NCBI RefSeq assembly: GCF_000521215.1
Contig: NZ_KI928940.1
Location: 287,818 to 351,817 of the forward strand
DNA length: 64,000 bases
Source: Labrenzia sp. DG1229
Lineage (GTDB): Bacteria; Pseudomonadota; Alphaproteobacteria; Rhizobiales; Stappiaceae
Direction of reading: 5' to 3'
Shown: in pieces, positions 2,010 through 15,972 of the stretch
Position numbering within the stretch: position 1 is the first letter of the stretch
Layout: every line of letters starts with the position of its first letter
The notes under the pieces: generated by a model
The model's database searches: none
Seen by the model: only the letters and a program-made list of their open reading frames with translations
What the model was told of the DNA's origin: nothing
Made by a program: the position numbers and the translations under genes

Positions 2010-2273
2010 CTAGCGGCCGGCTTCGATGTCTTGAAACGCCTTGATCGCCTTGCCGTGGAGATCCATCGCGCGTTTCTTGAAGTTCTTGAAAAGGGTGAGG
2101 ATCTCCGCCCGATCGTGCGGGCGGCGTTCCAGGCAAATTTCCAGATCGCCAAGGGTTGAGGAGAGATCCTCGACCACCTGGCAGGTTTCGCCCATGAACT
2201 GCCGCGCGCGATGCGCCGCGGGCGGGTCGACCCGCTTCGCGTCATCCTTCTGAAGATCAGAGACCTGCCGCAT
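2010..2273 (-). CDS. small helical hypothetical phage protein
   Basis: 87 residues, charged and predicted helical throughout (for example LTLFKNFKKRAMDLHGKAIKAFQDIEAGR at the C-terminus). Its start codon overlaps the stop of the GapR-like gene by one base, so the pair is probably translationally coupled. I recognise no family. Position between gapR-like and P-loop genes suggests early expression with them. Confidence 0.55.
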   Translation of the reverse strand: MRQVSDLQKDDAKRVDPPAAHRARQFMGETCQVVEDLSSTLGDLEICLERRPHDRAEILTLFKNFKKRAMDLHGKAIKAFQDIEAGR

Positions 2274-2563
2274 CAGCCCGCCTCTGGTTCCGATCCGGCG
2301 CCCGGATCGTCGTCCGGGCCAAGCATTCCGAGCGCGTGGAGATAGAGGTCGAGGACGGTTTCTTCCTCCTCGCGCTCGTGCGGCTGTTTCTTGCGCAAGG
2401 AGACGATCTTGCGCAGGATCTTGACGTCATAGCCGTTGCCCTTGGCCTCGCCGTAGACGTCCTTGATGTCATCGGCAATGACCTTTTTTTCTTCCTCGAA
2501 CCGCTCAATGCGTTCGATGAAGGCGCGCAGCTGGTCGGCTGCGACTCCTCCGGGATCAGTCAT
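2273..2563 (-). CDS. GapR-like DNA-binding protein (DUF2312 family)
   Basis: 96 residues. [17 protein letters not shown] (residues 11-27), then [19 protein letters not shown] and [13 protein letters not shown], are close matches to the conserved core of the alphaproteobacterial DUF2312 family. In Caulobacter that family member, GapR, binds overtwisted AT-rich DNA and affects replication and the cell cycle. The acidic tail ([15 protein letters not shown]) is an addition. It is the first confidently called gene of the leftward operon, 350 bp from the operator. A phage-borne copy would be expected to act on phage or host chromosome topology; that role is inferred from the family. Confidence 0.88.
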
Positions 2564-2696
2564 TTCGGAAAACTCCTTGTTCGGGAAAAGCCTGGCGAAA
2601 CAGACCGCAGCGGATCTGCTTGGCGGGGCGGCGCGGGAAGAGATGATTTGTGCCTAGTCAGAGGTCATCCGCACGCCGTTGCCCTGGTTCGCTAGA

Positions 2697-2882
2697 TCAT
2701 GGCGCGCTCCTTGTGCTGTTGAGAGGAGATGATCCGCTCGATGGGGCGGCGTTTCCGGGTCTCTGCCCGGTTTCTGTGGCAAGCCTTTCCGGCCGGAGAT
2801 CCTGGCCGGAGCCGTCCTCAAGCCTCTCGCGATGGGAAGTCGCGTCAGGACGGCGGGAGGAAGTGTGAGTCAGGTCTTGCAT
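2697..2882 (-). CDS. possible short leader ORF
   Basis: 61 residues from an ATG at 2882 with GGAGAAGG just upstream, so the initiation site is good. The product (MQDLTHTSSRRPD start; rich in S, R, P) has no recognisable fold and could be spurious. It is the first frame downstream of the leftward promoter and might serve as a leader peptide. Confidence 0.3.
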   Translation of the reverse strand: MQDLTHTSSRRPDATSHRERLEDGSGQDLRPERLATETGQRPGNAAPSSGSSPLNSTRSAP

Positions 2883-2910
2883 TGCCTTCTCCAATGGGGA
2901 AGAAAGCTAG

Positions 2911-2932
2911 TAGCATAAATGCTATTCGTCAA
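2911..2932 (-). promoter_or_regulatory. leftward early promoter with repressor operator
   Basis: The palindrome TAGCATAAATGCTA (2911-2924) lies directly next to a TTGACG box on the minus strand (2927-2932). The operator would therefore occupy the spacer between -35 and -10. A half-site TGCTATT is seen at 2959-2965. The same TAGCA-N4-TGCTA element occurs at 5111-5124 inside the immunity region. This indicates that the prophage repressor also silences the integrase operon. Confidence 0.6.
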
Positions 2933-3092
2933 TCAGAAATATCAAATTAAAAACCAAATGCTATTCTTTGCTCAACGACATGACCGGACACCTGACGCTT
3001 AATCGCTAGTTTTCCGGATTTAAGATGCTTGGTTGTGAGAATCTCTGCAGCAATTAAACGTATCGTATAGCCGCTTTTTTCCAACAATAAGT

Positions 3093-3107
3093 GTGATACG
3101 CTATCAC
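3093..3107. promoter_or_regulatory. palindromic operator-like site
   Basis: GTGATA-CGC-TATCAC is a perfect 6-bp-arm palindrome 27 bases before the GTG start of the following gene. It differs from the phage TAGCA/TGCTA operator, so a separate regulator may control this cargo gene. No cognate regulator can be named from sequence alone. Confidence 0.4.
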
Positions 3108-3133
3108 GAATATTAAAAGGGGAATGCCCAAAC

Positions 3134-3961
3134 GTGACGGCTCTTGGACTTTTTAAACCTAACGATTTGAAAATATCTGAAGCGATTTCTTCTCTGAACA
3201 AAGAGCTGAAAACACTGGGCGCCGCGGAAGTAATGGTTGCCAACGAAGTGACCGATTTTGAAGTAGCGACAAGACAGGTTGGAAAACCAAACCTTGTCGG
3301 TGAGCATTTCAGAAGGTCCTTAAATACCCTTCCTCCTGACCAGGTTCTCTGGGCTGGCGCGTACGATGAAGATGGCAGCTGTGTGTGCACAGTTGCATCG
3401 CAATACCTGCCTTTTGAAGACCGCTCACTTGATCGCCACCTAATCGACTATTTTGAACGCTGTTTTGACGCCGAGGATGGGGGTAAAGTTGAGATGGGCA
3501 GGGGCTCATTTGCTTTTCTTGGCCTCACAGGCGGCCCCTTCGTTTACGTCGGCGAGGGACATGTTCGAGAGGACATGAGAGGCAGTAACTTTCTGGGCCA
3601 TTTGCAGAGGTTACTGATCCTATCCGCATATTGGAGATGGCGACCCAACCTGATTTATGGGTTCATGGAACCAAGAATGATAAAAAGAAAATACCATACG
3701 ACGTGGGGATACAGTTTTGCTCATCCATCGGGAGTTATTTGGAAGAAAAGACCGAAGATGGAGGTTTGGCGTGACCCATACTTTGTGGGTCTTGCATCTG
3801 AAGGGATTTGTCGCCTGGCAGAAGATGCCTTAGAGGTCGGTTCGTCCCAACGTCGTGCGAATAACAAAACAGAAACGAACATCCATAAATTGTCTGAAAG
3901 GGCAAAATTAAGCGCTGATACTTCAGCTCAACAGTCGGTTCAAAACCGTAAGTCAGACTAG
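3134..3961 (+). CDS. cargo protein, possibly acetyltransferase-like
   Basis: 275 residues from a GTG (GGGGA 12 bases upstream). The central part (GGPFVYVGEGHVREDMRGSNF, then LQRLLILSAYWRWRPNLIYGFMEP and TTWGYSFAHPSGVIWK) has the arrangement of a GNAT fold: a beta strand, an R-G loop and a following helix. I cannot match it to a named family, so the function stays open. The last ~50 residues are polar. The gene lies between the integrase operon and the repressor, a common place for lysogenic cargo, and converges with the PAS-like gene, overlapping it by 227 bp on the opposite strand. Confidence 0.6.
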   Translation: MTALGLFKPNDLKISEAISSLNKELKTLGAAEVMVANEVTDFEVATRQVGKPNLVGEHFRRSLNTLPPDQVLWAGAYDEDGSCVCTVASQYLPFEDRSLDRHLIDYFERCFDAEDGGKVEMGRGSFAFLGLTGGPFVYVGEGHVREDMRGSNFLGHLQRLLILSAYWRWRPNLIYGFMEPRMIKRKYHTTWGYSFAHPSGVIWKKRPKMEVWRDPYFVGLASEGICRLAEDALEVGSSQRRANNKTETNIHKLSERAKLSADTSAQQSVQNRKSD

Positions 3962-4316
3962 TTGCAACGTATTCAAAGATTGGTTTTTTTTCGAAAATTG
4001 CCTTCTTGTAACCGCGTCCAATGAGCTCAACATATTCATCATCAAGAGAGCTCACAGCTTTCTTTGGCCTATCCGCCCAGTCGGCTCCGAGAATTCGCGA
4101 GGCAAGAGAATTTTCTCCCGCAATCAACATGTTTGGAGCGGAGTTGCCTGTCGGTTGTCCGTCAAACATCAAAAGCGACGGAGATACGCTTACCAACTCG
4201 TCCGTAAGGTGGCCCTGGCTGGCCTTCCAGACAGACAGTAGTCTTTGCGTTAGTGAGTCAGCGCTACCGCGCTCAACGTCATCCAAATCCAGTTCAAAAA
4301 CCGTATTCTGGGTCAT
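3735..4316 (-). CDS. PAS-like domain protein
   Basis: 193 residues from an ATG at 4316 that overlaps the stop of the upstream gene as ATGA, implying coupled translation. Residues 20-140 (RLLSVWKASQG, LIAGENSLASRILG, then ELKYQRLILPFQTIYGCSFLFCYS) resemble the alphaproteobacterial PAS_5-type sensor fold, which ends in the same LILPF...S pattern. The C-terminal 45 residues are read antisense through the 3134-3961 gene and may be unconstrained. A sensory or regulatory role in lysogeny is possible but unproven. Confidence 0.5.
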   Translation of the reverse strand: MTQNTVFELDLDDVERGSADSLTQRLLSVWKASQGHLTDELVSVSPSLLMFDGQPTGNSAPNMLIAGENSLASRILGADWADRPKKAVSSLDDEYVELIGRGYKKAIFEKKPIFEYVATSLTYGFEPTVELKYQRLILPFQTIYGCSFLFCYSHDVGTNRPLRHLLPGDKSLQMQDPQSMGHAKPPSSVFSSK

Positions 4317-4579
4317 TGCTCTACAATTGAGTTGCATAGGGCTAGTGTGATGGACGGTTCCAGGTTCTCCAGAAATTCAAGATACCGAATATCCGAAATT
4401 CGTGGTTCCAAGCCTTGAAAATTATTGTGTCCGTACGCCCGCAGACACGCAATCTCGGCGACAACTTGGATATCAAATTCGGTAATGTAATTTAGTATCC
4501 TCTTGAAGTAAATTTCGGGAGGTATTATCGGTTCACTAACGCAAAAGTTGTATAAAAGGTTGTAGTTATCTGGCTTCAC
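4313..4579 (-). CDS. small hypothetical protein coupled to the PAS-like gene
   Basis: 88 residues from a GTG at 4579 with GGGAG nine bases upstream. The sequence is mostly helical and acidic (for example FKRILNYITEFDIQVVAEIACLRAYG). No family is recognised. The 4-bp overlap with the downstream PAS-like gene suggests a two-gene cargo operon transcribed towards the integrase side. Confidence 0.5.
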   Translation of the reverse strand: MKPDNYNLLYNFCVSEPIIPPEIYFKRILNYITEFDIQVVAEIACLRAYGHNNFQGLEPRISDIRYLEFLENLEPSITLALCNSIVEQ

Positions 4580-4664
4580 GTTGCACCGCTCCCGAAAATT
4601 ATGATTTTGTTAAATTTAGACGGAGACTGTTAATCTTGCAACCAAGACTTGAGGCTAACTGGAA

Positions 4665-5099
4665 TTACTCGCCCTTTGTTTTTGCTATTTTCTCAGCGTA
4701 TATACCCAAAACCATTACCGCCAATGCGGGTGGGTCTATTCTGCTGCTTTTGTCTTCTTTCGCTGCGGCCATAATTTCCATTGCTTCCCGGTATGCTTCC
4801 CGGAAGCATTCAACATTACTTACCTTTGCGCCTTTGAGATCCAATCCCTGTGTCAGGTCGCCGATGCTTGCTTGTTCTATAGAATGGCCAGAAGGCTCGC
4901 CGGAACCCATCAAGTCAGATACTGGAACGCCAAGTTTTTCAGCAATCTTGGCCAACGTCTTTACTGACGGTGTGTGAGACTTGTTCAGCAACTGAGTGAT
5001 ATAACTCTCGTTATGTCCCAGTTGTTTGGATAGCTCATTCATATAGACGCCCTTGGACTCAATCACCTGGCGCAGATTTATTTTCCAATGTTCTGACAT
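4665..5099 (-). CDS. prophage XRE-family repressor (CI-like)
   Basis: From ATG 5099 the product is 144 residues; an alternative ATG at 5120 adds seven residues but would lie within the operator. Residues 8-60 form a clear XRE helix-turn-helix (LRQVIESKGVYMNELSKQLG, HNESYITQLLNKSHTPSVKTLAKIAEKLGV). The C-terminal ~85 residues do not contain the Ser-Lys LexA-type protease motif, so induction by RecA-stimulated self-cleavage is not indicated. It is divergent from the Cro-like gene, with operators between them, which fits the lysogeny switch. Confidence 0.75.
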   Translation of the reverse strand: MSEHWKINLRQVIESKGVYMNELSKQLGHNESYITQLLNKSHTPSVKTLAKIAEKLGVPVSDLMGSGEPSGHSIEQASIGDLTQGLDLKGAKVSNVECFREAYREAMEIMAAAKEDKSSRIDPPALAVMVLGIYAEKIAKTKGE

Positions 5100-5110
5100 G
5101 ATGTCATTAA

Positions 5111-5188
5111 TAGCAAACATGCTAATCGCCTGAAACAGTGAAGAATGCTATTGACGCATAATAGCAAATGTGAAAGTTTGCTATTATG
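5111..5188. promoter_or_regulatory. immunity-region operators
   Basis: TAGCAAACATGCTA (5111-5124) has the same TAGCA-N4-TGCTA form as the site at 2911. A half-site TGCTATT lies at 5146-5152. A second, larger inverted repeat has 12-bp perfect arms CATAATAGCAAA (5157-5168) and TTTGCTATTATG (5177-5188); its right arm includes the ATG of the Cro-like gene. TTGACG at 5151-5156 is correctly spaced for transcription to begin at about 5186, so that gene may be read from a leaderless mRNA. Confidence 0.65.
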
Positions 5189-5413
5189 TCCAGCATCACA
5201 GAAATGGTTGAGGCCTTTCTGGTGGCATCTGAGATGCCTCAGTCGGCCTTTGGAAAAGCAGCTGTGGGTGATCCCAATCTCGTCCGTCGATTGCGGAACG
5301 GACTCGACGTTCGTACGCGAACTGCAGCGAGAATTGCAGCATTCATTGACGACTATTGGTCGAAGAACCCCCACAAAAAACTTCATTTGGACCGAACTCA
5401 TGAAAAATCATAG
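5186..5413 (+). CDS. Cro-like small helix-turn-helix protein
   Basis: 75 residues. MVEAFLVASEMPQSAFGKAAVGDPNLVRRLRNGLDVRTRTAARIAAFI reads as a compact helix-turn-helix of the small Cro/antirepressor type. It is divergent from the XRE repressor. There is no Shine-Dalgarno, and the start codon lies in the right arm of the operator palindrome, which suggests direct autorepression. Confidence 0.65.
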   Translation: MSSITEMVEAFLVASEMPQSAFGKAAVGDPNLVRRLRNGLDVRTRTAARIAAFIDDYWSKNPHKKLHLDRTHEKS

Positions 5414-5426
5414 TAGCCACCCTATA

Positions 5427-5485
5427 ACCATGTCTTGCGGAATCGGTACGCGCCCATTGCGGAAAGCACCGACGTTGGCGCGTAG
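5427..5485. repeat. 59-bp direct repeat, copy 1 (structured)
   Basis: Identical over 59 bases to 6053-6111. It contains a perfect 8-bp inverted repeat TACGCGCC...GGCGCGTA with a short CGG/CCG inner stem. It lies between the Cro-like gene and the minus-strand gene at 5661-5963. Read on the minus strand both copies encode LRANVGAFRNGRVP, and on the plus strand MSCGIGTRPLRKAPTLAR. Full identity, including codon third positions, argues either for recent duplication or for a nucleic-acid-level function. Confidence 0.75.
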
Positions 5486-5660
5486 CATGAGCGGCTGGTC
5501 TTTGAAAAGGCGGCTTGCCGATGCGGCCTGTGCTTTCCAGACCGGGCACTCGGTGCGCGGCTACCGTCGCTCCTATAGCCGCAGGGTCGCGCTGCTGGCT
5601 CTGCGGGTAGCCAATCATGAGCGCCGCGAGGCCGAGACGCGGCCAGAACACGCGGAAGGA

Positions 5661-5963
5661 CTATTGGCGTCTGCGCAATCGATTGAGAATGCGGTCAACC
5701 GACATCTTGAAACGTTCGAAGGCAAGAGCCTGTCCTTCCTGCTTGATCGCGCGTTCATCGAGCGAAGCAGGAGCCGTAGAGGGGAGGCGGAAGCGCTTGG
5801 TGTCGAAATTATCGAGCATGGTATCGAGGCGTGTCGCTGCCATTTCGAACCCGACCCGGTCTCGTCGCTCAAATTCCAGGGCCATCTCTATAAAGGCCTG
5901 TTCGAAGACGGCAGCTTTGATTTCCTCTTTTACCAGCATTTCGTCGGACGATGGGATTGGCAT
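5661..5963 (-). CDS. small hypothetical phage protein
   Basis: 100 residues from ATG 5963, chosen for the GGAG nine bases upstream; a longer frame would start inside the 59-bp repeat. Highly charged and helical (EEIKAAVFEQAFIEMALEFERR, then FERFKMSVDRILNRLRRRQ). No family recognised. The gene lies between the two copies of the 59-bp repeat. Confidence 0.5.
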   Translation of the reverse strand: MPIPSSDEMLVKEEIKAAVFEQAFIEMALEFERRDRVGFEMAATRLDTMLDNFDTKRFRLPSTAPASLDERAIKQEGQALAFERFKMSVDRILNRLRRRQ

Positions 5964-6052
5964 CGGTTTCTCCGTTGGTTGAAGGCCAGTCTCGCGTTTC
6001 AGGGAAAAAGGCTCACGCGGAAGGTCCGCCCGCAATTTGGAGGTTGCAAATG

Positions 6053-6111
6053 ACCATGTCTTGCGGAATCGGTACGCGCCCATTGCGGAAAGCACCGACG
6101 TTGGCGCGTAG
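6053..6111. repeat. 59-bp direct repeat, copy 2 (structured)
   Basis: Second copy of the element at 5427-5485, 626 bp away, including the same 8-bp stem. It lies between the two small minus-strand genes, so each of those genes has a copy downstream. Confidence 0.75.
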
Positions 6112-6265
6112 ACTGAAAGGATGGCTGTCCACGCTCTGGCCAGGACGGCACCGGCTGCCAGACGGCTTGATCACCGAAGCAGGCGGCATCTCCATGCGCA
6201 GCGAAAAAGGTAGTATCCGCATTGAAACGCTGGAGACAGCTGGATTGAACGAACAGCCTGCAGAA

Positions 6266-6529
6266 TTAGTCGAATTCAGGAGGTGTCGACAGATTACGCA
6301 ATTTATCGAGGGTCTGTCGCGCGGTATTCATTTGAATATGAACGCGTCGCTCGTCCGGGAACACATCGTTCTTCAGAAGACGCTTTTCGGTCGCCGAAAG
6401 AATAATTTCAGCGTCTCGGAAGAGGAAATCCCGGTCGTCACTCTTGAGGACGAGGGGGATCAACAGCGCCTCGAGAGCGCTCAGTCGGCCTCGTTGAGCG
6501 TCCAGGGCGTCGGTAATTTCACTGTCCAT
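6266..6529 (-). CDS. small helical hypothetical phage protein
   Basis: 87 residues from ATG 6529 with GGAG eight bases upstream. Heptad-like leucines (LDAQRGRLSALEALLIPLVLK) suggest a coiled coil. No family recognised. The opposite-strand frame 5951-6574 is longer but has no plausible start or fold, so the minus-strand reading is preferred. Confidence 0.5.
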   Translation of the reverse strand: MDSEITDALDAQRGRLSALEALLIPLVLKSDDRDFLFRDAEIILSATEKRLLKNDVFPDERRVHIQMNTARQTLDKLRNLSTPPEFD

Positions 6530-6630
6530 TTATCAGTCTCCATAGGCTTTGAGCCGGAGGAAGACGGCGAATGATTGTTTTTCAGAATACACAAATGCAT
6601 CTCCTCCTGGTTTGGCAGGGGTGGGTGACA

Positions 6631-6664
6631 GGCCCCGTTGGGTGCGTCAACACGCGACGGGGCC
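6631..6664. promoter_or_regulatory. strong hairpin between divergent early genes
   Basis: GGCCCCGT (6631-6638) pairs perfectly with ACGGGGCC (6657-6664), with an inner GCGT/ACGC stem (6644-6647 and 6652-6655). No T-run follows. It lies 58 bases before the next gene and could be a leader structure or operator. Confidence 0.4.
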
Positions 6665-6721
6665 GCAGACTTCATATCACAAAAGTTCTATTTTTGTTCT
6701 CTTTTTCCCGTGGAGGTTGTC

Positions 6722-7075
6722 ATGACCCTGTTTTGCGATACCGAAAGCCATCTCTTGCGGAAACGGCCACAGGCTCTGCGCATCGACATGGATCGCCTGT
6801 CGCGCTTTTTCAGAGACCGGTACCCGACTGCGACTGCAGCCGCTGTTGCGGCGGACCTTGGTGTTTCGCTGCGAACCGTAGAGGCGTGGTTGGGGTCCAG
6901 CCCCCGTGAACCCAAGGCAACCCAGATCATCAAGGCTATCTGGATCTACGGGCCGGACTTTCTGGCGGTCCTGCTACCGGAACCGCCGCAATGGCTTTCA
7001 GAAGCTGCACTCGAGGAAGAGCGGCGGAAAACACGTCACGCAATCAAAGAGATGGAACGGCGGCTAAACCGCTAA
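6722..7075 (+). CDS. putative helix-turn-helix phage regulator
   Basis: 117 residues from ATG 6722, preceded by GGAGG. Residues 22-50 (LSRFFRDRYPTATAAAVAADLG, then VSLRTVEAWLGSSP) read as a helix-turn-helix in which RTVEAWL would be the recognition helix. A charged C-terminal helix (ALEEERRKTRHAIKEMERRLNR) follows. It is the first gene of the rightward early cluster, so an early regulator role is reasonable. Confidence 0.6.
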   Translation: MTLFCDTESHLLRKRPQALRIDMDRLSRFFRDRYPTATAAAVAADLGVSLRTVEAWLGSSPREPKATQIIKAIWIYGPDFLAVLLPEPPQWLSEAALEEERRKTRHAIKEMERRLNR

Positions 7076-7099
7076 TTCCCTTGTGTCCGGAGGCCAGAG

Positions 7100-7261
7100 A
7101 TGCGGAAGAACAAATGGAGTACAAAGTGGGTTTCGGCCCTGTTGCGGCTGATCTGCCATGTGCTGGAAGTGCTGTGCAGGCGCATGGCGCGTGGTGGCGC
7201 ATGGTGGGCGAATGGCTGGGACGCCCTTGGCGACCGCTGCCGCACCGCTGCGAAAGCGTGA
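7100..7261 (+). CDS. very small basic protein
   Basis: 53 residues from ATG 7100 with GGAGG seven bases upstream, ending nine bases before the next start codon. The sequence begins MRKNKWSTKWVSALLRLICHV and contains LCRRMARGGAWWANGWDALG, so it is basic, Trp-rich and possibly membrane-interacting. The good ribosome site and tight spacing support it; no family is recognised. Confidence 0.5.
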   Translation: MRKNKWSTKWVSALLRLICHVLEVLCRRMARGGAWWANGWDALGDRCRTAAKA

Positions 7262-7270
7262 GGTGAGGGC

Positions 7271-7714
7271 ATGTCGACCACTTCCGCCCATGAACTTGAA
7301 ACCAAGTTTCTGAACGAGACCATCGACGCATTGCGCGACCAGGTCGACTATCTCGAGGCGCAGCTGATGGACACCGAAATCCAGTTTCCGCCGGATTTCG
7401 GATTGTCGCATCAGGACAAAAAGGTTGTGCGCCATCTCCTGAAGCGGCCGTTTGCCACGCACGACTCCCTTCGAGCAATTCTTTATGCCGACTTGAGAGG
7501 CGAGGAGCCGGAGAGCGACACGCTCTATATCCGCATTTACAAGATCCGCGGCCTTTTGCGCCCCCATGGTGTCGAGATCACAACGCGCCACGGCGAAGGA
7601 TACGAACTCACCCCCGCCATGAAACAGCGACTTCGCAGTGTCTGTGCCGCCTATGCGGACGGCGCGAGCGCGGCAACAAACTCTCTCGATCGGACTGAGG
7701 AGCAAACGGCATGA
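7271..7714 (+). CDS. receiver-less CtrA/OmpR-type winged-helix protein (paralogue 1)
   Basis: 147 residues. Residues 8-36 form an acidic coiled-coil-like helix (TKFLNETIDALRDQVDYLEAQL). Residues 39-115 read as an OmpR-type winged helix: FPPDFGLSHQDKKVVRHLLKRP, an insertion GEEPESDTLYIRIYKIRGLL, and HGEGYEL (107-113) in the wing. It aligns with the better preserved CtrA-like protein at 10751-11149. No phospho-receiver domain is present. It would bind DNA without phosphorylation control. The stop overlaps the next start (ATGA). Confidence 0.72.
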   Translation: MSTTSAHELETKFLNETIDALRDQVDYLEAQLMDTEIQFPPDFGLSHQDKKVVRHLLKRPFATHDSLRAILYADLRGEEPESDTLYIRIYKIRGLLRPHGVEITTRHGEGYELTPAMKQRLRSVCAAYADGASAATNSLDRTEEQTA

Positions 7715-7938
7715 CCCGGCTGACGTCATTCATCGACCTGCAGGACAATGCAGACCCGGCCGCAGCTGCCATGTGGCGCGCGTATCCGGAAGGACCGCCG
7801 GCGGATGTCTATGAACCGCCGTTCAACGAAGACAAGGCGGTTGCCCGCGCAATTTCACTGGAAGCCCTCGGCGCCATGGAGGCCGTTTCGACCCTGCCGC
7901 ACCTGTTCGGCCCGGAAACGGGTGCGGTGACGTGCTGA
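7711..7938 (+). CDS. small hypothetical phage protein
   Basis: 75 residues, acidic, no recognised domain (RLTSFIDLQDNADPAAAAMWRAYPEGPP). Overlaps the upstream gene by 4 bp and the methyltransferase by 7 bp, so it is part of a tightly packed early operon. Confidence 0.5.
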   Translation: MTRLTSFIDLQDNADPAAAAMWRAYPEGPPADVYEPPFNEDKAVARAISLEALGAMEAVSTLPHLFGPETGAVTC

Positions 7939-8753
7939 AGCCGACACGCTCTTTCCTTGACGGTCAGATTCAGCTGTTCCTGGGTGATGCGCGTGATGTT
8001 GTGCCGGCGCTCGGCCGCAGGTTTCGCGTTGCCTGTTTCGATGCGCCTTACAAGCTGACATCCGGAGGGGCCGCAAAAACCTCGGCGAAGCACAAGGTCA
8101 TGTGCGGCGGCTGGATGGCCGATTATGACAATTCCGGCACGCTGATGGAAACCGACATCACCTGGCAAGAGGTGATGGAACTGGCCGCAGACTGCCTGCA
8201 GAAGAATGCAGACGTTTACGCCTTTGCAAATGACAAGAACCAGTTTGAGGCGCAGCTCGAGGCGCGCAACGCCGGACTGAAGTTTCACAACCTGCTGGCG
8301 TGGAACAAGATCAACGCGACGGCAAACCGCTGGTACATGAAGAACCTGGAGTTCGTGCTCTATCTCTACGCCGGCGAGGCGCGCGCGATCGCCAATTGCG
8401 GCGACAAGCAACTTGTGAATTTTCCCCAAAGGGACGCCACCAGCCACCCGACTGAAAAGCCGGTGCCGCTGGTCGAGGCTTATATCCGGAATTCCGCCCT
8501 GCCGGGCGAGCCGGTGATTGATCCGTTTCTCGGGTCCGGGACTGCGGCTCTTGCCTGCATCAACACCGGAAACCCGTTCGTCGGGGTTGAAATCGACCCT
8601 TCCCATTTCGAGACCGCATGCCGGCGCGTGGAACGCGCCCTTGCAGAACGGCAGATCGACCTGACCGCGTTTCGGCGTGGCCGGTCCCGCCAGGCTGGTG
8701 ATCAGTGCGACCTCGAAACCTTTCTGGAAACAAAGGGAATACAGGCATGCTGA
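7932..8753 (+). CDS. phage DNA methyltransferase (beta-type, DAPY motif)
   Basis: 273 residues from a GTG. The catalytic motif IV reads DAPY (residues 37-40) instead of DPPY. The S-adenosylmethionine-binding motif I (DPFLGSGTAAL) comes near residue 197 after a PTEKP block. This order (catalytic first) is that of beta-class N6-adenine/N4-cytosine methyltransferases. The protein is short, with no obvious target-recognition extension, so it may methylate a short site. No restriction partner is nearby; protection of phage DNA or interference with host methylation control are possible roles. Confidence 0.82.
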   Translation: MLKPTRSFLDGQIQLFLGDARDVVPALGRRFRVACFDAPYKLTSGGAAKTSAKHKVMCGGWMADYDNSGTLMETDITWQEVMELAADCLQKNADVYAFANDKNQFEAQLEARNAGLKFHNLLAWNKINATANRWYMKNLEFVLYLYAGEARAIANCGDKQLVNFPQRDATSHPTEKPVPLVEAYIRNSALPGEPVIDPFLGSGTAALACINTGNPFVGVEIDPSHFETACRRVERALAERQIDLTAFRRGRSRQAGDQCDLETFLETKGIQAC

Positions 8754-9922
8754 TTGAAACGACCGCGGGTGATTTGAGGCTCGCATTGAACCTGGTGAAA
8801 CCCGCCATCCACCGGAGAAACACCATCCCGATCCTGAGCTGCGTCCTTCTGAAGGATGGCGCGGCGCGGGCTACAGATCTCGATATGGAGATCTCCATGA
8901 AATTTGCCGCAAGCCATTTCGAAGGGGAGGTTGCTGTCCCTGGCCTGCAGCTCTTTGACCTGGTTTCCAGTTTGCCCTTCGACATGAAGATCCGGCTTCA
9001 GCGCCTGCAGGGCGATGAACACGGTGTCCATATCTACTTTTCCGGTGGCCGATATCGGTTGCCGACCTTGCCGACGGAGGATTTTCCCGACTTTCCGAAA
9101 GACGACGAAACAAAGCGAATGAAAGCCCCTGACGGCTTGCTGGCGGCGATCGATGCTGTTCGTGGTGCGATTTCGACCGAAGAAACCAGATACTACCTGA
9201 ACGGTTTTTGCTTTTCGAAGTCTCCGCAGGGAAAGTCGGTTCTGGTTGCAACCGATGGGCATAGGCTGGTCGCTCACGACTATGATCATGACTGCGACGA
9301 AAGCAGAATTGTACCCCGAATGGCGCTGCCAGCCCTTACGCTCTTGCCGCAACCGCAGTCTGTCTTTCAGTCAAACAGGCAAATGCGGTTTTATTATCCG
9401 GGCGGCCACCTGTTCACCAAGCTGATTGACGGTGCTTTCCCGGATTGGCATCGCGTTGTTCCATACTTTAACGACGACGTGAAATCGCTGCGTTTCTCGC
9501 CGCTTGAGATGATGCGGGTGCTGAACCGGATCAACAAGATCGCCGGGTCGTCGCGTGGCCGCGCTGTCGACATCAGCGCTTCTTCCGCTGGCGACATGGT
9601 GGTCGTTGCAAGCAAGGGGAGCGACTCTGAGGAATGCGCAGAACGTCTTGAAAGCGGGTCCGCGGTAAATTGGTCGGGACCGTCCGATGTACGCAGTTTC
9701 AGCACTCGTTACCTGAGCGAAATTTGCCGACTTCACCGGCAGGCAGACACTATTTCCATAGTTGCGGCCGATGATCGATCGCCTGCACGCATCGTGCCCG
9801 ACAACGGTAAAACGCTCGCGATCCTGATGCCCATGCGGAACGGCTGCGGCCTCGTAGGCAAGGCATTGCTGGCCTTCGCAGACGGCGCCAATGACGCGGC
9901 CCAAGCGGAAAGGGCGGCGTGA
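8747..9922 (+). CDS. dnaN: phage-encoded DNA polymerase III beta clamp
   Basis: 391 residues from ATG 8747, which overlaps the end of the methyltransferase gene. The start MLIETTAGDLRLALNLVKPAI matches the N-terminal strand and helix of bacterial beta clamps; FPDFPKDDE, VLVATDGHRLVAHDY and the C-terminal IVPDNGKTLAILMPMR fit clamp domains 1-3. Length is near the family norm (~370), so all three domains seem present. The clamp tethers polymerase and recruits many partners through a hydrophobic pocket. Carrying a complete clamp is uncommon for a temperate phage and suggests replication partly independent of the host clamp. Confidence 0.9.
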   Translation: MLIETTAGDLRLALNLVKPAIHRRNTIPILSCVLLKDGAARATDLDMEISMKFAASHFEGEVAVPGLQLFDLVSSLPFDMKIRLQRLQGDEHGVHIYFSGGRYRLPTLPTEDFPDFPKDDETKRMKAPDGLLAAIDAVRGAISTEETRYYLNGFCFSKSPQGKSVLVATDGHRLVAHDYDHDCDESRIVPRMALPALTLLPQPQSVFQSNRQMRFYYPGGHLFTKLIDGAFPDWHRVVPYFNDDVKSLRFSPLEMMRVLNRINKIAGSSRGRAVDISASSAGDMVVVASKGSDSEECAERLESGSAVNWSGPSDVRSFSTRYLSEICRLHRQADTISIVAADDRSPARIVPDNGKTLAILMPMRNGCGLVGKALLAFADGANDAAQAERAA

Positions 9923-10761
9923 TGGAGGCGGTAACAGCTCAAACGCGCCCGATCGAGCCGATTGCGATTCCGGACTTATCACCCGGTCTCGTTGCCGCCG
10001 ATCGGCCCGACTTCAGGAATGTTGACCCGGCATCGCTCCGTGTGGACGTGAAGTATCAGCGCAACCTGTCCGGTCGATCCCTGAAATTGATCAGGAAAAT
10101 TGTTTCCAATTGGGATTGGGCAGCATTCAAACCGCCGGTCTGCGTCGATGTTGGCGGCGATCTGCATGTGGTGGACGGCCAGCACACCGCAACTGCCGCC
10201 GCAACGCATCCCGGCATCGCCTTCATACCCGTGATGATCGTAAAGGCCGAGCAAGCAAATTCCCGCGCTGCAGCCTTTGTGAAGCACAACCGCGATCGCG
10301 TGAACGTGACGCCCATGCAGTTGCATTACTCGCTGCTTGCGTCTGGTGATGAGGAAGCAATTGACGTCGACCGCGCGTGCCAATTGAGCGGTGTGACAAT
10401 TCTTCGCCAGCCGCCTGCATTTGCCAAATTCAAGGAGGGTGAAACCCTTGCCATCGAGGCAATCAAATCCCTGGTAAAGCGGCGGTTCATCGTTGGGGCG
10501 CGGAAGGTCCTGGATGTTTGCGTTGAGGCAAAGTGCGCACCCGTAAGCAGCGACGTCATCAAAGCCGTGGAAGCACTCCTTTTCAACGAGGAATACGCCG
10601 CTTCGATCATTCCTGAAAATCTGGCGACCACGATCCGATCGGCATCGCCGGATCTTCAGGCTGACATTGCTTCCTTCAAGCTGGCGCATCGGGTTCCGAA
10701 ATGGCGAGCGATGGCCGTTGTTTACTTCCGAAACACAAGGAAAAAGCGCCGTGCCAAATGA
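9922..10761 (+). CDS. ParB-like nuclease-fold phage protein
   Basis: 279 residues from ATG 9922, overlapping the dnaN stop. [15 protein letters not shown] and [15 protein letters not shown] reproduce the ParB N-domain signature seen in the phage DUF6551-type group: a DPxxL-like strand and a D-G-Q-H box. The C-terminal half (helical, ending [10 protein letters not shown]) is basic and may bind DNA. A partition role would need parS sites and a ParA, neither of which is seen, so a replication or regulatory role is as likely. Confidence 0.7.
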
Positions 10762-11149
10762 TGCAGACTACCAGGCGCTCGAAGCCGAAAACCTGCTTCT
10801 CAGAGAGCGTATCTACCAACTCGAGGATGCGCTTTTTGCGGAAACTCCACTTCCTCCGGATTGGGGGCTAACTGTGAGCGAGGAGCGTGTTGTCGCCTGT
10901 TTGTTATCACGCCCGCAGGCAACAAAAGACGCCATCATGGCGGCGCTTTACCGGAATGACGGTAAGGACGAGCCTGAACTCAAGATTGTTGATGTTTTCG
11001 TTTGCAAGGCTCGCAAAAAGCTTGCGCCGTTCGGTATCGAAATCAAGACCGTCTGGGGTCGGGGATACATGATCGACGCGTCAGTGAGGGTGAAAATCCG
11101 TCATGGGGCTGTCGTGATCGTCGCCGATGAAAAAGACGAGGCGGCGTGA
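10751..11149 (+). CDS. receiver-less CtrA-like DNA-binding protein (paralogue 2)
   Basis: 132 residues from a GTG at 10751 (AAGGA upstream); the frame extends further left inside the ParB-like gene. Residues 6-31 form a coiled-coil-like helix. Residues 39-110 are a winged helix close to the C-terminal domain of the cell-cycle regulator Ctr[20 protein letters not shown] (73-91) and TVWGRGY (100-106) are near-identical to the CtrA recognition-helix and wing region as I know it from Caulobacter and Rhizobiales. The CheY-like receiver of CtrA is missing. The protein could occupy CtrA boxes constitutively. Paralogous to 7271-7714. Confidence 0.82.
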
Positions 11150-11493
11150 TGACGGTCTATGTTCTTCACTTCAATCCACCGTTCCGGCATGCGCGTCATT
11201 ATATCGGCTATACGCCGGAAGCGACTGCAGAGCGGCGGGTTCAGGAACACCTCGACTGCAGCGCAAAGGGAAGCCCCCTGGTGAAAGCCGCCCTGAATGC
11301 GGGCTGCAAGGTTACCCTGGCGCACGAGTTTCCGAGCGCCGGCCGCGATTTCGAGCGCTGGCTCAAGACACGCCGCGACACCGCAAAATGGTGCGGCTGT
11401 TGCGGGCAGAACAGCCGACCTTTGCCACGGGCTGAAAACATCAGCGACAGTTTCAAGGGCGACAAGCCGCAATACGGCAGGAGGGCTGCCTGA
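11149..11493 (+). CDS. GIY-YIG superfamily protein
   Basis: 114 residues from ATG 11149 (ATGA overlap with the previous gene). VYVLHFNPP, HYIGYTPE and RRVQEH reproduce the GIY strand, YIG strand and conserved Arg helix of the GIY-YIG nuclease fold. A CGCCG zinc-like pair follows near residue 82. There is no DNA-recognition extension, so the substrate cannot be guessed. Confidence 0.7.
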   Translation: MTVYVLHFNPPFRHARHYIGYTPEATAERRVQEHLDCSAKGSPLVKAALNAGCKVTLAHEFPSAGRDFERWLKTRRDTAKWCGCCGQNSRPLPRAENISDSFKGDKPQYGRRAA

Positions 11494-11975
11494 TGAAGCT
11501 TGCAAAGACGCACCAGGCGGCCAACACCTATGCCATCAGCGCGCGCGAGGCCGAGCGGCTCGGTGTACCGGTGATCGTTATGCGGTCGCCGGCGGCAGCC
11601 GCCCGAATGCTGCAGGAACCGGCCTTCGTGCCGCCGACGCCCGCGCAACTGCGTGACGCGAAGATGCGCGCCCTGGCACTCGAGATCCGCCAGGCCAAGG
11701 AGCGCGGGGTCAAGCAGGGCTGCCGCCTGACCATGAAGAAAGTGGCGCTGCGCACGGGGTTTCTGTTTTCCGAACTCACTGAAAAAAGCCGGTCACAGGA
11801 CAGGGTTGCTGCCCGTTATCGCGCTTTCTGGGGCATGCGTGCCGGCACCGACTGGACGTGGCCGGATATCGCCCGTTTTTTCGGACTTAATCACACGACG
11901 GTCCTGCACGGTGTCCGCAAACACACGGCACTGACCGGGAAAACGCTTCCAGACAGAAACAGCAAGAAGAAATAG
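11493..11975 (+). CDS. free-standing DnaA domain IV-like protein
   Basis: 160 residues. SRSQDRVAARYRAFW (99-113) followed by WTWPDIARFFGLNHTTVLHG and VRKH (121-144) matches the DnaA domain IV signature that reads DnaA boxes (RRFGGRDHTTVLHAV in hosts). The AAA+ domain is absent. The N-terminal 95 residues are basic and unassigned. It could recognise DnaA boxes in the phage origin or compete with host DnaA at oriC; both are inferences from the motif. Confidence 0.8.
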   Translation: MKLAKTHQAANTYAISAREAERLGVPVIVMRSPAAAARMLQEPAFVPPTPAQLRDAKMRALALEIRQAKERGVKQGCRLTMKKVALRTGFLFSELTEKSRSQDRVAARYRAFWGMRAGTDWTWPDIARFFGLNHTTVLHGVRKHTALTGKTLPDRNSKKK

Positions 11976-11988
11976 GGAGCGGGGAATG

Positions 11989-12756
11989 TTACAAGGGATT
12001 GTCTGGATTTCGCGGCAAGAAACCAGTAAAAGCATCATCAAGGAGTTCTCTAAGGTTTTCAAACGCTTGGTTTCGCAGTGTTGTTCTGTTCTTAAACACT
12101 TCAACAAGTATTCGCTCTTCATCTTGTTCAAGGCGATATCGCAGAAAATCGAATTGTTGGATCATCTCTTCGATGTATTGAAATCCTTCTGGCTCGTACC
12201 TTTCGGTATCCTGGTTAGCCTCATCCCACCCAATAACTTTCACGGTCGAGCTCGCGGATTCAATAGCGTTCAAAATGCGCAGGCACCTGAACTCCTCAAT
12301 CGGGTGCATCATCCCCGTAAGATTGCTAAGAACACGTTGTCCAGCTCGCCGGTGTATATGTGCGAGTTCCCTTTTCACGTATTCAGCCTGTCTTTCAATG
12401 TGTTTGGCGTCACGAGATTGCGCATTAATATCTTCAGCGTCTCTCCAAACACGATTGATTTCTTCGCAAAGCTTCATGACCTCCCGATCGAAAAGTACCT
12501 TGGCTTCGATTTGCTGTTTGTGCGCGATGTTCTTGCTGCTGCGGATTTGATAGAGAATTGTAAAAATGGTGCACCCGGCAGCGATCGCGGCAGCCCAACC
12601 ACTCAAAGCTCCAATCCAGTTGCGATAACATTCACGAACAGTTTCGTTGGCGGCACTCGCTGCTTCGAGTGTGCAGGCTGTATCGAGCATGGACCATGCG
12701 ACGATCAGAGCGATCGGGAGGAGCGCGCCAATAAGTATCCAGTGAACAGACTTCAT
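11989..12756 (-). CDS. membrane protein with coiled coil, opposite orientation (moron candidate)
   Basis: 255 residues from ATG 12756 (an alternative ATG lies at 12768). Two membrane segments near the N-terminus (WILIGALLPIALIVAWSML and WAAAIAAGCTIFTILYQI) are separated by a Cys-containing ~25-residue loop. A long charged helical cytoplasmic part follows (KQQIEAKVLFDREVMKLCEEINRVW onward). It is the only gene on the minus strand within the rightward replication cluster and is A/T-richer than its neighbours, which marks it as an inserted cargo gene. Superinfection exclusion or abortive-infection roles are plausible for this architecture but unproven. Confidence 0.6.
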   Translation of the reverse strand: MKSVHWILIGALLPIALIVAWSMLDTACTLEAASAANETVRECYRNWIGALSGWAAAIAAGCTIFTILYQIRSSKNIAHKQQIEAKVLFDREVMKLCEEINRVWRDAEDINAQSRDAKHIERQAEYVKRELAHIHRRAGQRVLSNLTGMMHPIEEFRCLRILNAIESASSTVKVIGWDEANQDTERYEPEGFQYIEEMIQQFDFLRYRLEQDEERILVEVFKNRTTLRNQAFENLRELLDDAFTGFLPRNPDNPL

Positions 12757-12800
12757 GCCATCGCCCATAGCACGGCACGGTTGCAGATGGGAGTCTGCGC

Positions 12801-14012
12801 ATGAGCAAACGCTTTTCCGATGCCGAGTTGCAGCGGATCAAGAACCGCAATCCGATTTCCAGCGTCGTCGGCCAATATGTGAGTTGGGACCGGTCAAAAA
12901 CCGATGCTGGCAAGGGAGATTTCTGGGCTTGCTGTCCGTTTCATGATGAAAGATCCCCGTCGTTTCACTGCCTGGACGGAGACAATACCTACAAGTGTTT
13001 CGGCTGCGGCGCATCTGGCGACCAGTTCACGTTCCTGCAGGAATACAAGCAGATATCGTTTGTCGAGGCCGTGGAGCTGCTCGGCGGCGAAGCCGAGCCG
13101 GAGCCGCTGAGTGAACAGCAGATCGCCGAAGATGCGGCAAAGCGGGAAGCCAAGCGCCGGCAGCAGGAGGAATTTGCCGAAAATCTTCGTCGTGACGAAA
13201 TCCGCAAGGCGCGCAAGATCTATGATTTTGGCGGGCGGGTCGCAGGAACGGAAGGGCTTGAGTATCTGCGTGGCCGAGGGCTGATGCCGCTGAAATTCAG
13301 ACTGCCGCTGCGTTTCAATCCGCATCTGAATTACTGGCAGTCGCGTCCGGTGCCCGGCAGCCGCAAGCGGGAATACATCGTCGTTTTCTCCGGCCCGGCC
13401 ATGCTTGCGCCGATCACCGGTGCCAGGGGCGAGTTTCTCGGTGTGCACATCACGTATATCGACCCGTTACGGCCCGGCAAGAAAATCGCGATAGAGGACC
13501 CCTATGCGGAACTGCGCGAGGATGGCAGGGCCGCTTTTCTGGTTCCCAAAAAGATCAGGGGCTCGAAACGCAATGCGTCGATCAAGCTGGTTCAGCCTGA
13601 AGGTTTCACCCGGCTGGTGATTGGCGAGGGGTGGGAAACCACGCTGTCGGTTGCCGTGGCCGAATTCGGAACCGCTCAGTTTGAACGAACAGCCTATTGG
13701 ACATCGATCGACCTGCAATCCATGGGGGGCAAGGCCGAAAAAACGATCGCGCATCCTGAGCGCAGGAACAAAACGGGAAAACCCGAGCGGGTGCCCGGTC
13801 CGGTGCCGGATCTGACCGACCCGAAAGCGCTTCTGATCCCCGACCAGGTTACCGAAGTGGTTCGGCTTGGCGACGGCGACAGTGACAGGTTCACGGCCGA
13901 ACAGGTGATGCAGCGATCGCACGCGCGATGGGAACGACCCGGACGCAAGCAGCGCACGGCATGGGCGCCTGAAGGCATGGACTTCAACAATGTTTTGGTG
14001 GGGGCAGAGTGA
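12801..14012 (+). CDS. phage DNA primase (CHC2 zinc finger plus Toprim)
   Basis: 403 residues from ATG 12801 (GGGAG upstream). The CHC2 zinc ligands are visible as C45-x2-H48 and C66-x2-C69 (CCPFHDERSPSF, YKCFGCGASGD). A charged linker (residues 105-140) leads to a Toprim-like domain with LVIGEGWETTLSVA near residue 276. The product synthesises RNA primers. The downstream helicase gene starts inside its stop codon, so the two act as a primase-helicase pair. Confidence 0.85.
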   Translation: MSKRFSDAELQRIKNRNPISSVVGQYVSWDRSKTDAGKGDFWACCPFHDERSPSFHCLDGDNTYKCFGCGASGDQFTFLQEYKQISFVEAVELLGGEAEPEPLSEQQIAEDAAKREAKRRQQEEFAENLRRDEIRKARKIYDFGGRVAGTEGLEYLRGRGLMPLKFRLPLRFNPHLNYWQSRPVPGSRKREYIVVFSGPAMLAPITGARGEFLGVHITYIDPLRPGKKIAIEDPYAELREDGRAAFLVPKKIRGSKRNASIKLVQPEGFTRLVIGEGWETTLSVAVAEFGTAQFERTAYWTSIDLQSMGGKAEKTIAHPERRNKTGKPERVPGPVPDLTDPKALLIPDQVTEVVRLGDGDSDRFTAEQVMQRSHARWERPGRKQRTAWAPEGMDFNNVLVGAE

Positions 14013-15658
14013 GCAAGAAGAAAAAGTCGGAAGAGACCCCGAAACCTAACATTCATGCACAGTTGAAAGCGGAACTTGACGCGAAGTCTGAGGCGAAACC
14101 CGAGGCCGGACGAGAGATTGATCAAAATAGTAAAAAACCATCCGAAGGTATTGAGAAAGCTACAAAATCAGGACGAGATAAGGTCCGTGAGCTGATCAAC
14201 GGTGCGGCTCAGCCGGCAATCGTCGATGAGCAGGAGGAATACCTGCCAAACGACGATGTTCAGACGGAAAACGACACTGGTTCCCAACTGCCCGTTCCAG
14301 AGGATTGGGGTTATTCGCTTGAAAGAATGAACGCCGAATGGTCGCTCGTGCTGATCGGTTCCAAGGTGGCGATGGTGCGCGAGCAACCGCACGCCAAGGA
14401 GGAGGACCGCATTCGGGTCGTCCAGGTCGAGGCATTCCACAAGCTTTACAGCAACAAACCGACGCAAGTGCATGGCGGGGATGGGAAAATCAAGAACATC
14501 ACATGGTCCAAGCGTTGGGAGGGCGAGCGGCACAGGCGCCAGTTCGACGGGATCGAGTTTTATCCGAACCCGGACGATCAGCCCGGCACACGTGGTTATC
14601 TGAACCTTTGGCAGGGCTTTTCCCATCAACCGGATCCCGGCGCCGGCAGCTGGTCTGTCTTCAAGGATCACATGCTGACCAACATCTGCGCCGGTGACGC
14701 CGATCTGTTCAATTGGGTGTTCGGCTGGTTTGCGCACATGCTGCAGACGCCGCGCTCACGCCCTGGCACCGCGCTGGTCGTGCGCGGGCTGATGGGCACC
14801 GGCAAGTCGATCATGGGCGAGGTCATGGGAAGCCTGATTGCGCCGCATTTCTTCCAGGTTGATGACCCGCGCTACATCACCGGCCAATTCAACGCGCACA
14901 TGAGCGCCTGCCTTCTGCTGCAGGCGGAAGAGGCGGTCTGGGCCGGTGACAAGGTTGCGGAAGGCCGGCTCAAGGGACTGATCACGTCAAAGACGCAGAT
15001 GATCGAGTCTAAGGGTGTCGACCCGTATCGCCTCGACAATTTCGTGCGCATCATGATGACGTCGAACGAGGATTGGGTGGTGCCGGCTGGCAAGGACGAG
15101 CGCCGCTATTGCGTGCTCGACTGTGAGCCGCACGCGAAGGAAAACCACGAATATTTCGGAGAATTGGTCGCCGAGCTGGACAATGGAGGCCGTCAGGCGC
15201 TTCTGGCTGACCTTCTGTCCTTCGATCTGTCCTCTGTCAATCTTCGCCAGATCCCTCGAACGGGCGCGCTGTTGCAGCAAAAGCTCCGGTCCCTCGACAG
15301 TGTCGACCAGTTCCTGTTCGAGCGCCTGCACGAAGGAACGCTCCTCAGTGCGGACGATACCTGGTGCCCGGACCCGTACATCATAAAACAGAAGCTCTAT
15401 GAGGAATATCTGACGTCGGCCGACAGGGTAGGGATCAAGAGGCGGGCGGACCTCAACCAGTTCGGCAAATCGCTGCTGAAGCTGATTCCGAATTTGCAGG
15501 ACATACGCCCGCGGGACGGTGGTTCGCGCCGGCGCGCCTACATGTTTCCGGGCCTTGCGGACTGCAGGGCAGGGTTCGAGGCAGCCGTCGGGCAGGCCGT
15601 TGACTGGCCGGTGGAGCCGCCAACGCCAGATCTTCAAAGCGAGCAATCCGCGTGGTGA
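14009..15658 (+). CDS. phage replicative helicase-like ATPase (DUF5906 type)
   Basis: 549 residues from a GTG overlapping the primase stop. The first ~90 residues are charged and low in complexity. Walker A (RGLMGTGKSIMGE) is near residue 261, and LLLQAEEAVWAGD near 300 fits Walker B. VRIMMTSNEDWVVPAGKDERRY near 350 matches the sensor and arginine-finger block of SF3-like primase-helicases. It should unwind DNA at the phage fork together with the primase. The origin-like repeats start 40 bp after its stop. Confidence 0.8.
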   Translation: MSKKKKSEETPKPNIHAQLKAELDAKSEAKPEAGREIDQNSKKPSEGIEKATKSGRDKVRELINGAAQPAIVDEQEEYLPNDDVQTENDTGSQLPVPEDWGYSLERMNAEWSLVLIGSKVAMVREQPHAKEEDRIRVVQVEAFHKLYSNKPTQVHGGDGKIKNITWSKRWEGERHRRQFDGIEFYPNPDDQPGTRGYLNLWQGFSHQPDPGAGSWSVFKDHMLTNICAGDADLFNWVFGWFAHMLQTPRSRPGTALVVRGLMGTGKSIMGEVMGSLIAPHFFQVDDPRYITGQFNAHMSACLLLQAEEAVWAGDKVAEGRLKGLITSKTQMIESKGVDPYRLDNFVRIMMTSNEDWVVPAGKDERRYCVLDCEPHAKENHEYFGELVAELDNGGRQALLADLLSFDLSSVNLRQIPRTGALLQQKLRSLDSVDQFLFERLHEGTLLSADDTWCPDPYIIKQKLYEEYLTSADRVGIKRRADLNQFGKSLLKLIPNLQDIRPRDGGSRRRAYMFPGLADCRAGFEAAVGQAVDWPVEPPTPDLQSEQSAW

Positions 15659-15698: not shown

Positions 15699-15972
15699 TG
15701 GTCCATGCTCCGTGTGGACCACCTGCAGGTGTCTGGACCGAAATTCGCTAATGAAAACAAGGGCTGGTCCATATGGTCCATGTGGTCCACGCGAAATGAT
15801 GCCTCGTGCGCCCGCGCGCGCGAAAAGGCGATCTACCCCTTTGGTCCTGATCTCTAACGGTGCGGATTTGCCCGGACCAACTGGACCACGCTGTCAAGCT
15901 GTTGAGATGCAAAGAGAAAACCGGTCCAGTTAGTTTATTTTCTGACTGGACCACACTGGACCAACTGGACCA
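15699..15972. repeat. TGGACCA/TGGTCCA iteron cluster, candidate replication origin
   Basis: The 346-bp gap after the helicase gene contains at least nine exact heptamers. TGGTCCA occurs at 15699, 15765, 15774 and 15783; TGGACCA at 15715, 15882, 15947, 15957 and 15966. Near-copies lie at 15734, 15842, 15872 and 15922. Three in a row on the left (9-bp period) face three in a row on the right in opposite orientation. The middle contains an AT-rich stretch (TAGTTTATTTT). No gene is seen in the gap. Confidence 0.65.

Follow-up and report, generated by a model that had tools for sequence, protein, structure and literature searches.

A candidate primase–helicase replicon and host-type, probably accessory proteins in a Labrenzia prophage

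A 64,000-bp stretch of the Labrenzia sp. DG1229 genome (contig NZ_KI928940.1; hereafter the window) contains a prophage with terminase, portal and protease genes, one arm of which encodes a GapR protein, two CtrA-type winged-helix proteins, a DnaN sliding clamp, a DnaA domain-IV protein, a ParB-like protein and a DNA methyltransferase. Do these host-type proteins work together on host replication or on a phage origin, as the initial annotation had proposed, or does the phage replicate by other means? Protein families were assigned by Pfam, PHROGs and NCBIfam profile scans together with open reading frame (ORF) lists. The results confirmed the seven proteins at their places and showed that they fall in the folds for which they had been named, not in unrelated ones. 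The reading that we favour, with a probability of about 0.65, is that the arm represents the early region of a temperate phage that has a replicon of its own, in which the host-type proteins are swappable accessories and not the parts from which the origin is built. The phage thus appears to start replication at an origin beside its own helicase gene and not by taking over that of the host.

Repeat array downstream of the helicase gene

The rightward genes of the arm span about 6638 to the terminase gene at 18502. They include genes for a CHC2 zinc-finger/Toprim primase (12801–14012, plus strand; PF01807, 2e-25; phrog_510, 9.7e-63) and a D5/DUF5906-type helicase, the candidate initiator (14009–15658, plus strand; PF19263, 7.1e-23). 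Behind the helicase gene lies a candidate replication origin (15699–15972) with nine exact TGGACCA or TGGTCCA repeats, clustered in both orientations, and directly after this array a gene for a conserved phrog_9306 protein (16005–16832, plus strand; 1.3e-49). TGGWCCA was found 17 times in the window against 7.1 expected, a count reached in none of 100 shuffles, and nine of these copies lie within 274 bp. Most repeats of the left-hand clusters point one way and those of the right-hand clusters the other, with steps of 9–10 bp; taken over 17 loci, 47 of 56 steps between same-strand repeats no more than 14 bp apart had this length. The gap between the helicase gene and the next gene contained 7–10 exact repeat copies in all five close relatives examined (L053, L054, L056, L057 and L058).

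The 725 bp upstream of the phrog_9306-type gene were compared with shuffled sequence at 26 loci, with helicase labels assigned by hand. The result showed an array at all 21 loci with a helicase linked to these families and at none of the five without one, although four of the 21 (L115, L118, L128 and L130) passed at one word length only. Distant loci of the phrog_9306 family carry other repeats at the same place, and in Rhizobium phage RR1-A two genes stand between helicase and array. Among 11 phages hand-picked from the helicase matches listed (Mae-JY28 with only 458 bp downstream), six had an array just 3′ of the gene; all six belonged to the seven phages taken from the matches of the other two helicase families. 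The record of Lactobacillus phage A2, one of the phages with such an array, annotates a rep_origin (32208–32717) that starts where the primase/helicase gene finishes (32235). As in the window, the repeat clusters of A2 lie in both orientations, although its host is Gram-positive and its repeat sequence is another one.

The sequence of the repeats tracked the helicase (partial correlation 0.55, permutation p = 0.0002; 18 loci, three near-duplicates removed) and not the downstream protein (0.05, p = 0.22; same loci). Loci lacking a family helicase (L123, L124, L129, L131 and L132) were not part of this test, and L055 (a fragment), L057 (the same prophage as L117, judged by identities) and L137, L138 and L143 (the same proteins as L115, L116 and L120) were left out of both this and the array test. 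The lengths compared were 420 bp, except for L115, which was given 724 bp because its repeats lie farther upstream. Two natural swaps point the same way: L115 and L116 have downstream proteins that are 97% identical but differ in helicases and repeats (those of L115 being a weak set of five), and L054 and L142, with downstream proteins 72.5% identical, likewise differ in both. Such swaps suggest which of the two proteins reads the repeats. The phrog_9306 protein had been considered for this part and was rejected, since the co-variation favours the helicase. Its family, with the conserved start IEKLLxWAYxEELPK, has members at E ≤ 1e-6 in 20 of the 397 genomes searched in the order (22 places; G171, G384 and G413 were not included at length). 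For a structure predicted from the window protein (mean pLDDT 75.6), no solved structure matched at E ≤ 0.001.

An array of DnaA boxes was also considered. TGGTCCACA matches TTATCCACA in seven of nine letters; the idea was rejected because the array is kept where DnaA domain IV has no match and because the repeats of the other helicase families are unrelated.

The layout resembles that of the pri-rep-ori modules of SaPI/PICI islands and P4, which likewise have a primase and an initiator helicase, and short iterons in an origin immediately 3′ of the initiator gene (PMC6092414, PMC7145576). The island origin is described as the region 3′ of the initiator gene, where two iteron sets flank an AT-rich region (PMC6092414), and in the window, too, iteron sets directly follow the gene of the putative initiator helicase. 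The window type differs in that the prophages carrying it encode a terminase, portal and protease themselves, and in having separate primase and helicase genes, often accompanied by a clamp and GapR.

The proposed replicon and its alternatives

We propose that the replicon consists of the CHC2 primase, the D5/DUF5906 helicase and an origin formed by the short repeat clusters just 3′ of the helicase gene, which the helicase probably recognises. Replication of the phage DNA would fall to host DNA polymerase III (Pol III), working with the phage clamp, which the host clamp loader would place on the DNA. Like its host counterpart, GapR would bind DNA that is overtwisted in front of forks or polymerases. 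Both winged-helix proteins and the DnaA domain-IV protein would be DNA-binding regulators, most likely of phage genes, whose promoters we consider the likelier targets; the methyltransferase may mark or protect phage DNA. What the sequences show is the gene content, the array, its co-variation with the helicase and the recurrence of subsets; the array as origin, its binding by the helicase and the functions of all the proteins are what we infer. No exact DnaA box and no exact copy of the full CtrA site (TTAA-N7-TTAA) was found in the 64-kb window, where neither kind of site exceeds chance. As the candidate origin is moreover kept in five relatives that gave no DnaA domain-IV match, the host-type proteins look like accessories, and the replicon can apparently be explained without DnaA, CtrA or GapR. 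The accessory proteins stay of interest because both DNA-binding domains keep their contact surfaces.

Several observations weigh against this reading. No array was found in five of the 11 phages (RHph_X2_30, RHph_TM26, YuA, Epa5 and RcRhea), and the first four of these are all the phages that were taken from the matches of the window helicase itself (34–36% identity). The L122 helicase (442 aa) is 57% identical, yet its locus has no repeated 6-mer in common with the window array. When all 21 loci are kept, the downstream protein retains a correlation of 0.275 (p = 0.004). The AT-rich part of the array is weak, its best 40 bp reaching 62% between the two right-hand clusters. In addition, in the window, L142 and Aurantimonas phage AmM-1 the DnaA domain-IV gene is followed on its own strand by a primase or helicase gene as the next gene, and in L062 it lies upstream of a primase, a position that would suit a direct role in replication.

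In the initial annotation, GapR, the CtrA-type proteins, the DnaA domain-IV protein, DnaN, the ParB-like protein and the methyltransferase were taken to act together, either to rewire host replication control or to form a phage origin complex, which we now consider very unlikely. Part of the set does recur, since viral record L142 has GapR, a winged helix, DnaN and DnaA domain IV, and GapR lies near DnaA domain IV in L060 and on contig C36; the DnaA contact residues and the CtrA recognition helix of winged helix 2 are also retained. However, L117 shows no DnaA domain IV, ParB-like protein or second winged helix, GapR stands on the other strand, 4.7 kb from the first gene of the rightward set, and DnaA and CtrA sites stay at chance level. 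An origin complex built from these parts is not supported: the likely origin is an array that comes after the helicase gene and changes with the helicase, and it is retained in five records (G465–G469, possibly fragments) that share primase and helicase; none of the five has a DnaA domain-IV match, and four have no winged-helix match in the stretch searched. A packaging site, or a regulatory region of the following gene, would also fit an array whose end is only 33 bp from the phrog_9306 gene and about 1.9 kb from that of the small terminase, and arrays precede a gene of that family in 21 of 26 loci. This explanation is unlikely: the repeats follow the helicase and not the phrog_9306 protein once near-duplicates are removed, and in other phages arrays lie 3′ of such helicases, in one case where a rep_origin is annotated.

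The DnaA domain-IV protein could be a transcription activator of phage genes, of the kind of Caulobacter GafY, unrelated to replication initiation; we regard this tentatively as a real possibility, at somewhat less than even odds. GafY (HdaB), like the window protein a free-standing DnaA domain IV in an alphaproteobacterium, was moved by later authors from replication control to the activation of a phage-like cluster (PMC9632790), and is described as homologous to DnaA domain IV and as acting on that cluster together with IHF (PMC9632790, PMC11150451). With this reassignment, a protein of this kind could have a simpler role. The window protein is likened to GafY by description, however, and its gene stands beside primase and helicase genes. 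GafY differs, furthermore, in working with a partner, GafZ, which we take to be the DUF6456 family, and DUF6456 had no match in the whole genome of the window at E ≤ 10. It is quite improbable, though conceivable, that the DnaA domain-IV protein and the receiver-less CtrA-type protein act as decoys, sitting on host DnaA and CtrA boxes while lacking the activating domains. Host initiation would then be stopped or deregulated, and Pol III, together with GapR and the phage clamp, would be freed for the phage origin; if so, that origin would need neither DnaA nor CtrA, and it carries no exact sites for them. For a group of temperate phages of alphaproteobacteria, the preferred replicon with accessories provides a testable origin together with its probable initiator. 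GapR close to that of the host, clamps, DnaA domain IV and DNA-binding domains of the CtrA type turn up again and again in prophages, and whether they steer host replication can now be asked with single gene deletions.

Host-type proteins of the prophage arm

The DnaA domain-IV protein (11493–11975, plus strand; 160 aa, with an N-terminal region of its own) matched PF08299 over the cut-off (1.8e-10), and no AAA+ domain III was matched in it by Pfam or NCBIfam, domain IV alone being found. Residues R100, R108 and H134, which we equate with R399, R407 and H434 of E. coli DnaA, are invariant in the three sequences compared (window, L142 and L062); at the position of E. coli D433 the window protein has N and both relatives D. 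The protein had no match in the phage collection and matched at E ≤ 1e-6 in two of 87 genomes of the family, its own included. A model predicted from two sequences (pLDDT 60.6) was too poor for use. DnaA domain IV is also found in phage AmM-1, where gp63 is annotated as a 'DnaA C-terminal domain containing protein'. The host genome has its own copies of DnaN (contig C15) and CtrA (C17) and two full DnaA genes (C15 and C12). In the genus, 41 of the 45 genomes showed at least two full-length DnaA frames (470 aa or more); a bacterium with two DnaA genes is uncommon.

Of the CtrA-type pair without receiver domains, one member stood and the other is less secure. Winged helix 2 (10751–11149, plus strand, probably starting at the GTG at 10751) matched PF00486 (3.7e-8), and only its C-terminal DNA-binding part was matched by Pfam and NCBIfam, with no receiver. 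Its recognition helix is nearly letter for letter that of host CtrA (DEPELKIIDVFICKLRKKL), to which the protein is 58% identical over 55 aa. Its best NCBIfam match is CtrA at 2.7e-13, yet with 50 of 350 bits, and by sequence it is not classed as CtrA. Winged helix 1 (7271–7714, plus strand) has no family over the cut-off, the Pfam family DUF7801 reaching 20.1 of 33.2 bits and PHROGs and NCBIfam giving none. It is the weakest assignment, supported only by resemblance to winged helix 2 (37% over about 100 aa) and to prophage relatives (41% to the L057/L117 proteins); it has an N-terminal coiled-coil-like segment, seen by eye, and lacks the CtrA-type recognition helix. CtrA-type winged helices were found in 31 phage records, a few of them annotated CtrA. 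In Roseobacter phages RDJL Phi 1 and Phi 2, the 'transcriptional regulator CtrA' is a winged helix of this type, 40–41% identical over the domain; RDJL Phi 1 differs in having a DNA polymerase gene nearby, and neither a clamp nor DnaA domain IV is annotated in the 12-kb stretch of it that was examined.

A full DnaN clamp had been claimed, and the scans bear this out. The 391-aa protein (8747–9922, plus strand; likely start 8747) matched TIGR00663 with 140.9 bits against a cut-off of 137.65 (4.8e-41; positions 9–366 of 367) and phrog_947 (2e-59), and is thus a predicted clamp over nearly its full length, although the Pfam scan matched clamp domains 1 and 2 only. Alignment with the host clamp showed that it keeps the C-terminal MPMR, which in known clamps is part of the partner-binding cleft. 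Beyond this end there is a tail of 27 residues, against 28 in L057 and L142 (MPVR in L142). The protein is 40% identical to host DnaN, 47% to the L057 clamp and 51% to the L142 clamp; being closer to those two, it is not a recent capture from this host. Phage clamps were found in 38 records, including Rhizobium phages 16-3 and RR1-A and Aurantimonas phage AmM-1.

The GapR protein (2273–2563, minus strand; 96 aa), a nucleoid-associated protein, has a full-length DNA-binding domain (PF10073, positions 1–72 of 72, 1.5e-34), while the Caulobacter equivalog model NF052541 gave 102.7 of 140 bits, below its cut-off; by its profile matches it is a GapR-domain protein and not the Caulobacter equivalog. 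The genome encodes another GapR on contig C59, which we regard as that of the host; over 88 aa the phage protein is 87.5% identical to it. The phage protein joins a host-like core to a phage-type C-terminal tail common to three viral records (L144–L146). GapR copies across the genus are nearly identical, and several copies, at least two, occur in 14 of its 45 genomes. GapR lies close to a DnaA domain-IV protein in L060, contig C36 and G034, and on a different contig in other genomes having both, such as G041, G043, G048 and G058. On C36 (L032–L034), a second prophage-like contig with terminase- and portal-like genes, the two are about 2.3 kb apart. A phage GapR was described in Erythrobacter phage R34L1, called the first in a phage by its authors, whose main text does not mention CtrA, DnaN or a sliding clamp (PMC12185513), and T4 DsbA has been termed a GapR homolog (PMC7824862).

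The DNA methyltransferase (7932–8753, plus strand; 273 aa) was confirmed by PF01555 (2.3e-19). With 46.5 of 830 bits, far below the cut-off of the CcrM equivalog, it is by profile an N6/N4-type enzyme and not CcrM. The ParB-like protein (9919–10761, plus strand) held up in part: phrog_1033 matched (4.7e-12), covering residues 15–136 only, and the DUF6551 (0.026) and DGQHR (0.062) matches are weak; a partition function is putative, and the protein might equally be called DGQHR-like.

Recurrence in relatives and neighbouring features

A comparative search for the same set returned subsets, in L142 and in the same-genus prophage L117 (GapR, winged helix, methyltransferase and DnaN). Among seven close records (window, L053, L054, L056, L057, L058 and L142), which may be fragments, GapR was present in six and DnaA domain IV in two when whole records were searched; in the stretches searched, a winged helix was present in three and a near-full clamp match in three (window, L057 and L142), with a partial match in L054 and a fragment in L056. 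The folds being as named, and subsets recurring in other prophages, these proteins are not chance neighbours. Five of the six protein kinds have precedent in named alphaproteobacterial phages, while a literature search of titles and the starts of abstracts gave no description of their combination. The nearest phages, AmM-1 (NC_027334) and RR1-A (NC_021560), have DnaN, a dNMP phosphatase, a methyltransferase or methylase, the primase, the D5/DUF5906 helicase, the array and a homolog of the 16005–16832 protein. They differ in that GapR was unmatched in either record, DnaA domain IV was unmatched in RR1-A, and no CtrA-type winged helix was matched in the stretches searched.

Within the window, the GapR gene belongs to a group of leftward genes that includes an excisionase-like one and one for a dNMP phosphatase, and stands apart from the rightward replication genes. 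Directly ahead of the methyltransferase gene is a gene for a small conserved protein, P7711 (7711–7938, plus strand), with similar proteins in L053, L054, L056, L057, L058, L117 and L142. The small protein at 11146–11493 (plus strand) is 67% identical to one in L142 and GIY-YIG-like by eye only; Pfam, PHROGs and NCBIfam gave no match. A minus-strand gene (11989–12768) separates the DnaA domain-IV gene from the primase gene; in L053 and L054, too, minus-strand genes lie ahead of the primase, and L058 has one between its primase and helicase genes, resembling a cargo slot. GANTC occurs 77 times in the window against 332 expected from shuffles, with copies along its whole length. An integrase-like gene, recognised by eye with no integrase search made and reading N in part of the genome copy, crosses the left edge from about −897 to +200. 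Between the repressor region and the replication genes there is a 75-bp duplication (5424–5498 and 6050–6124) with 92% identity.

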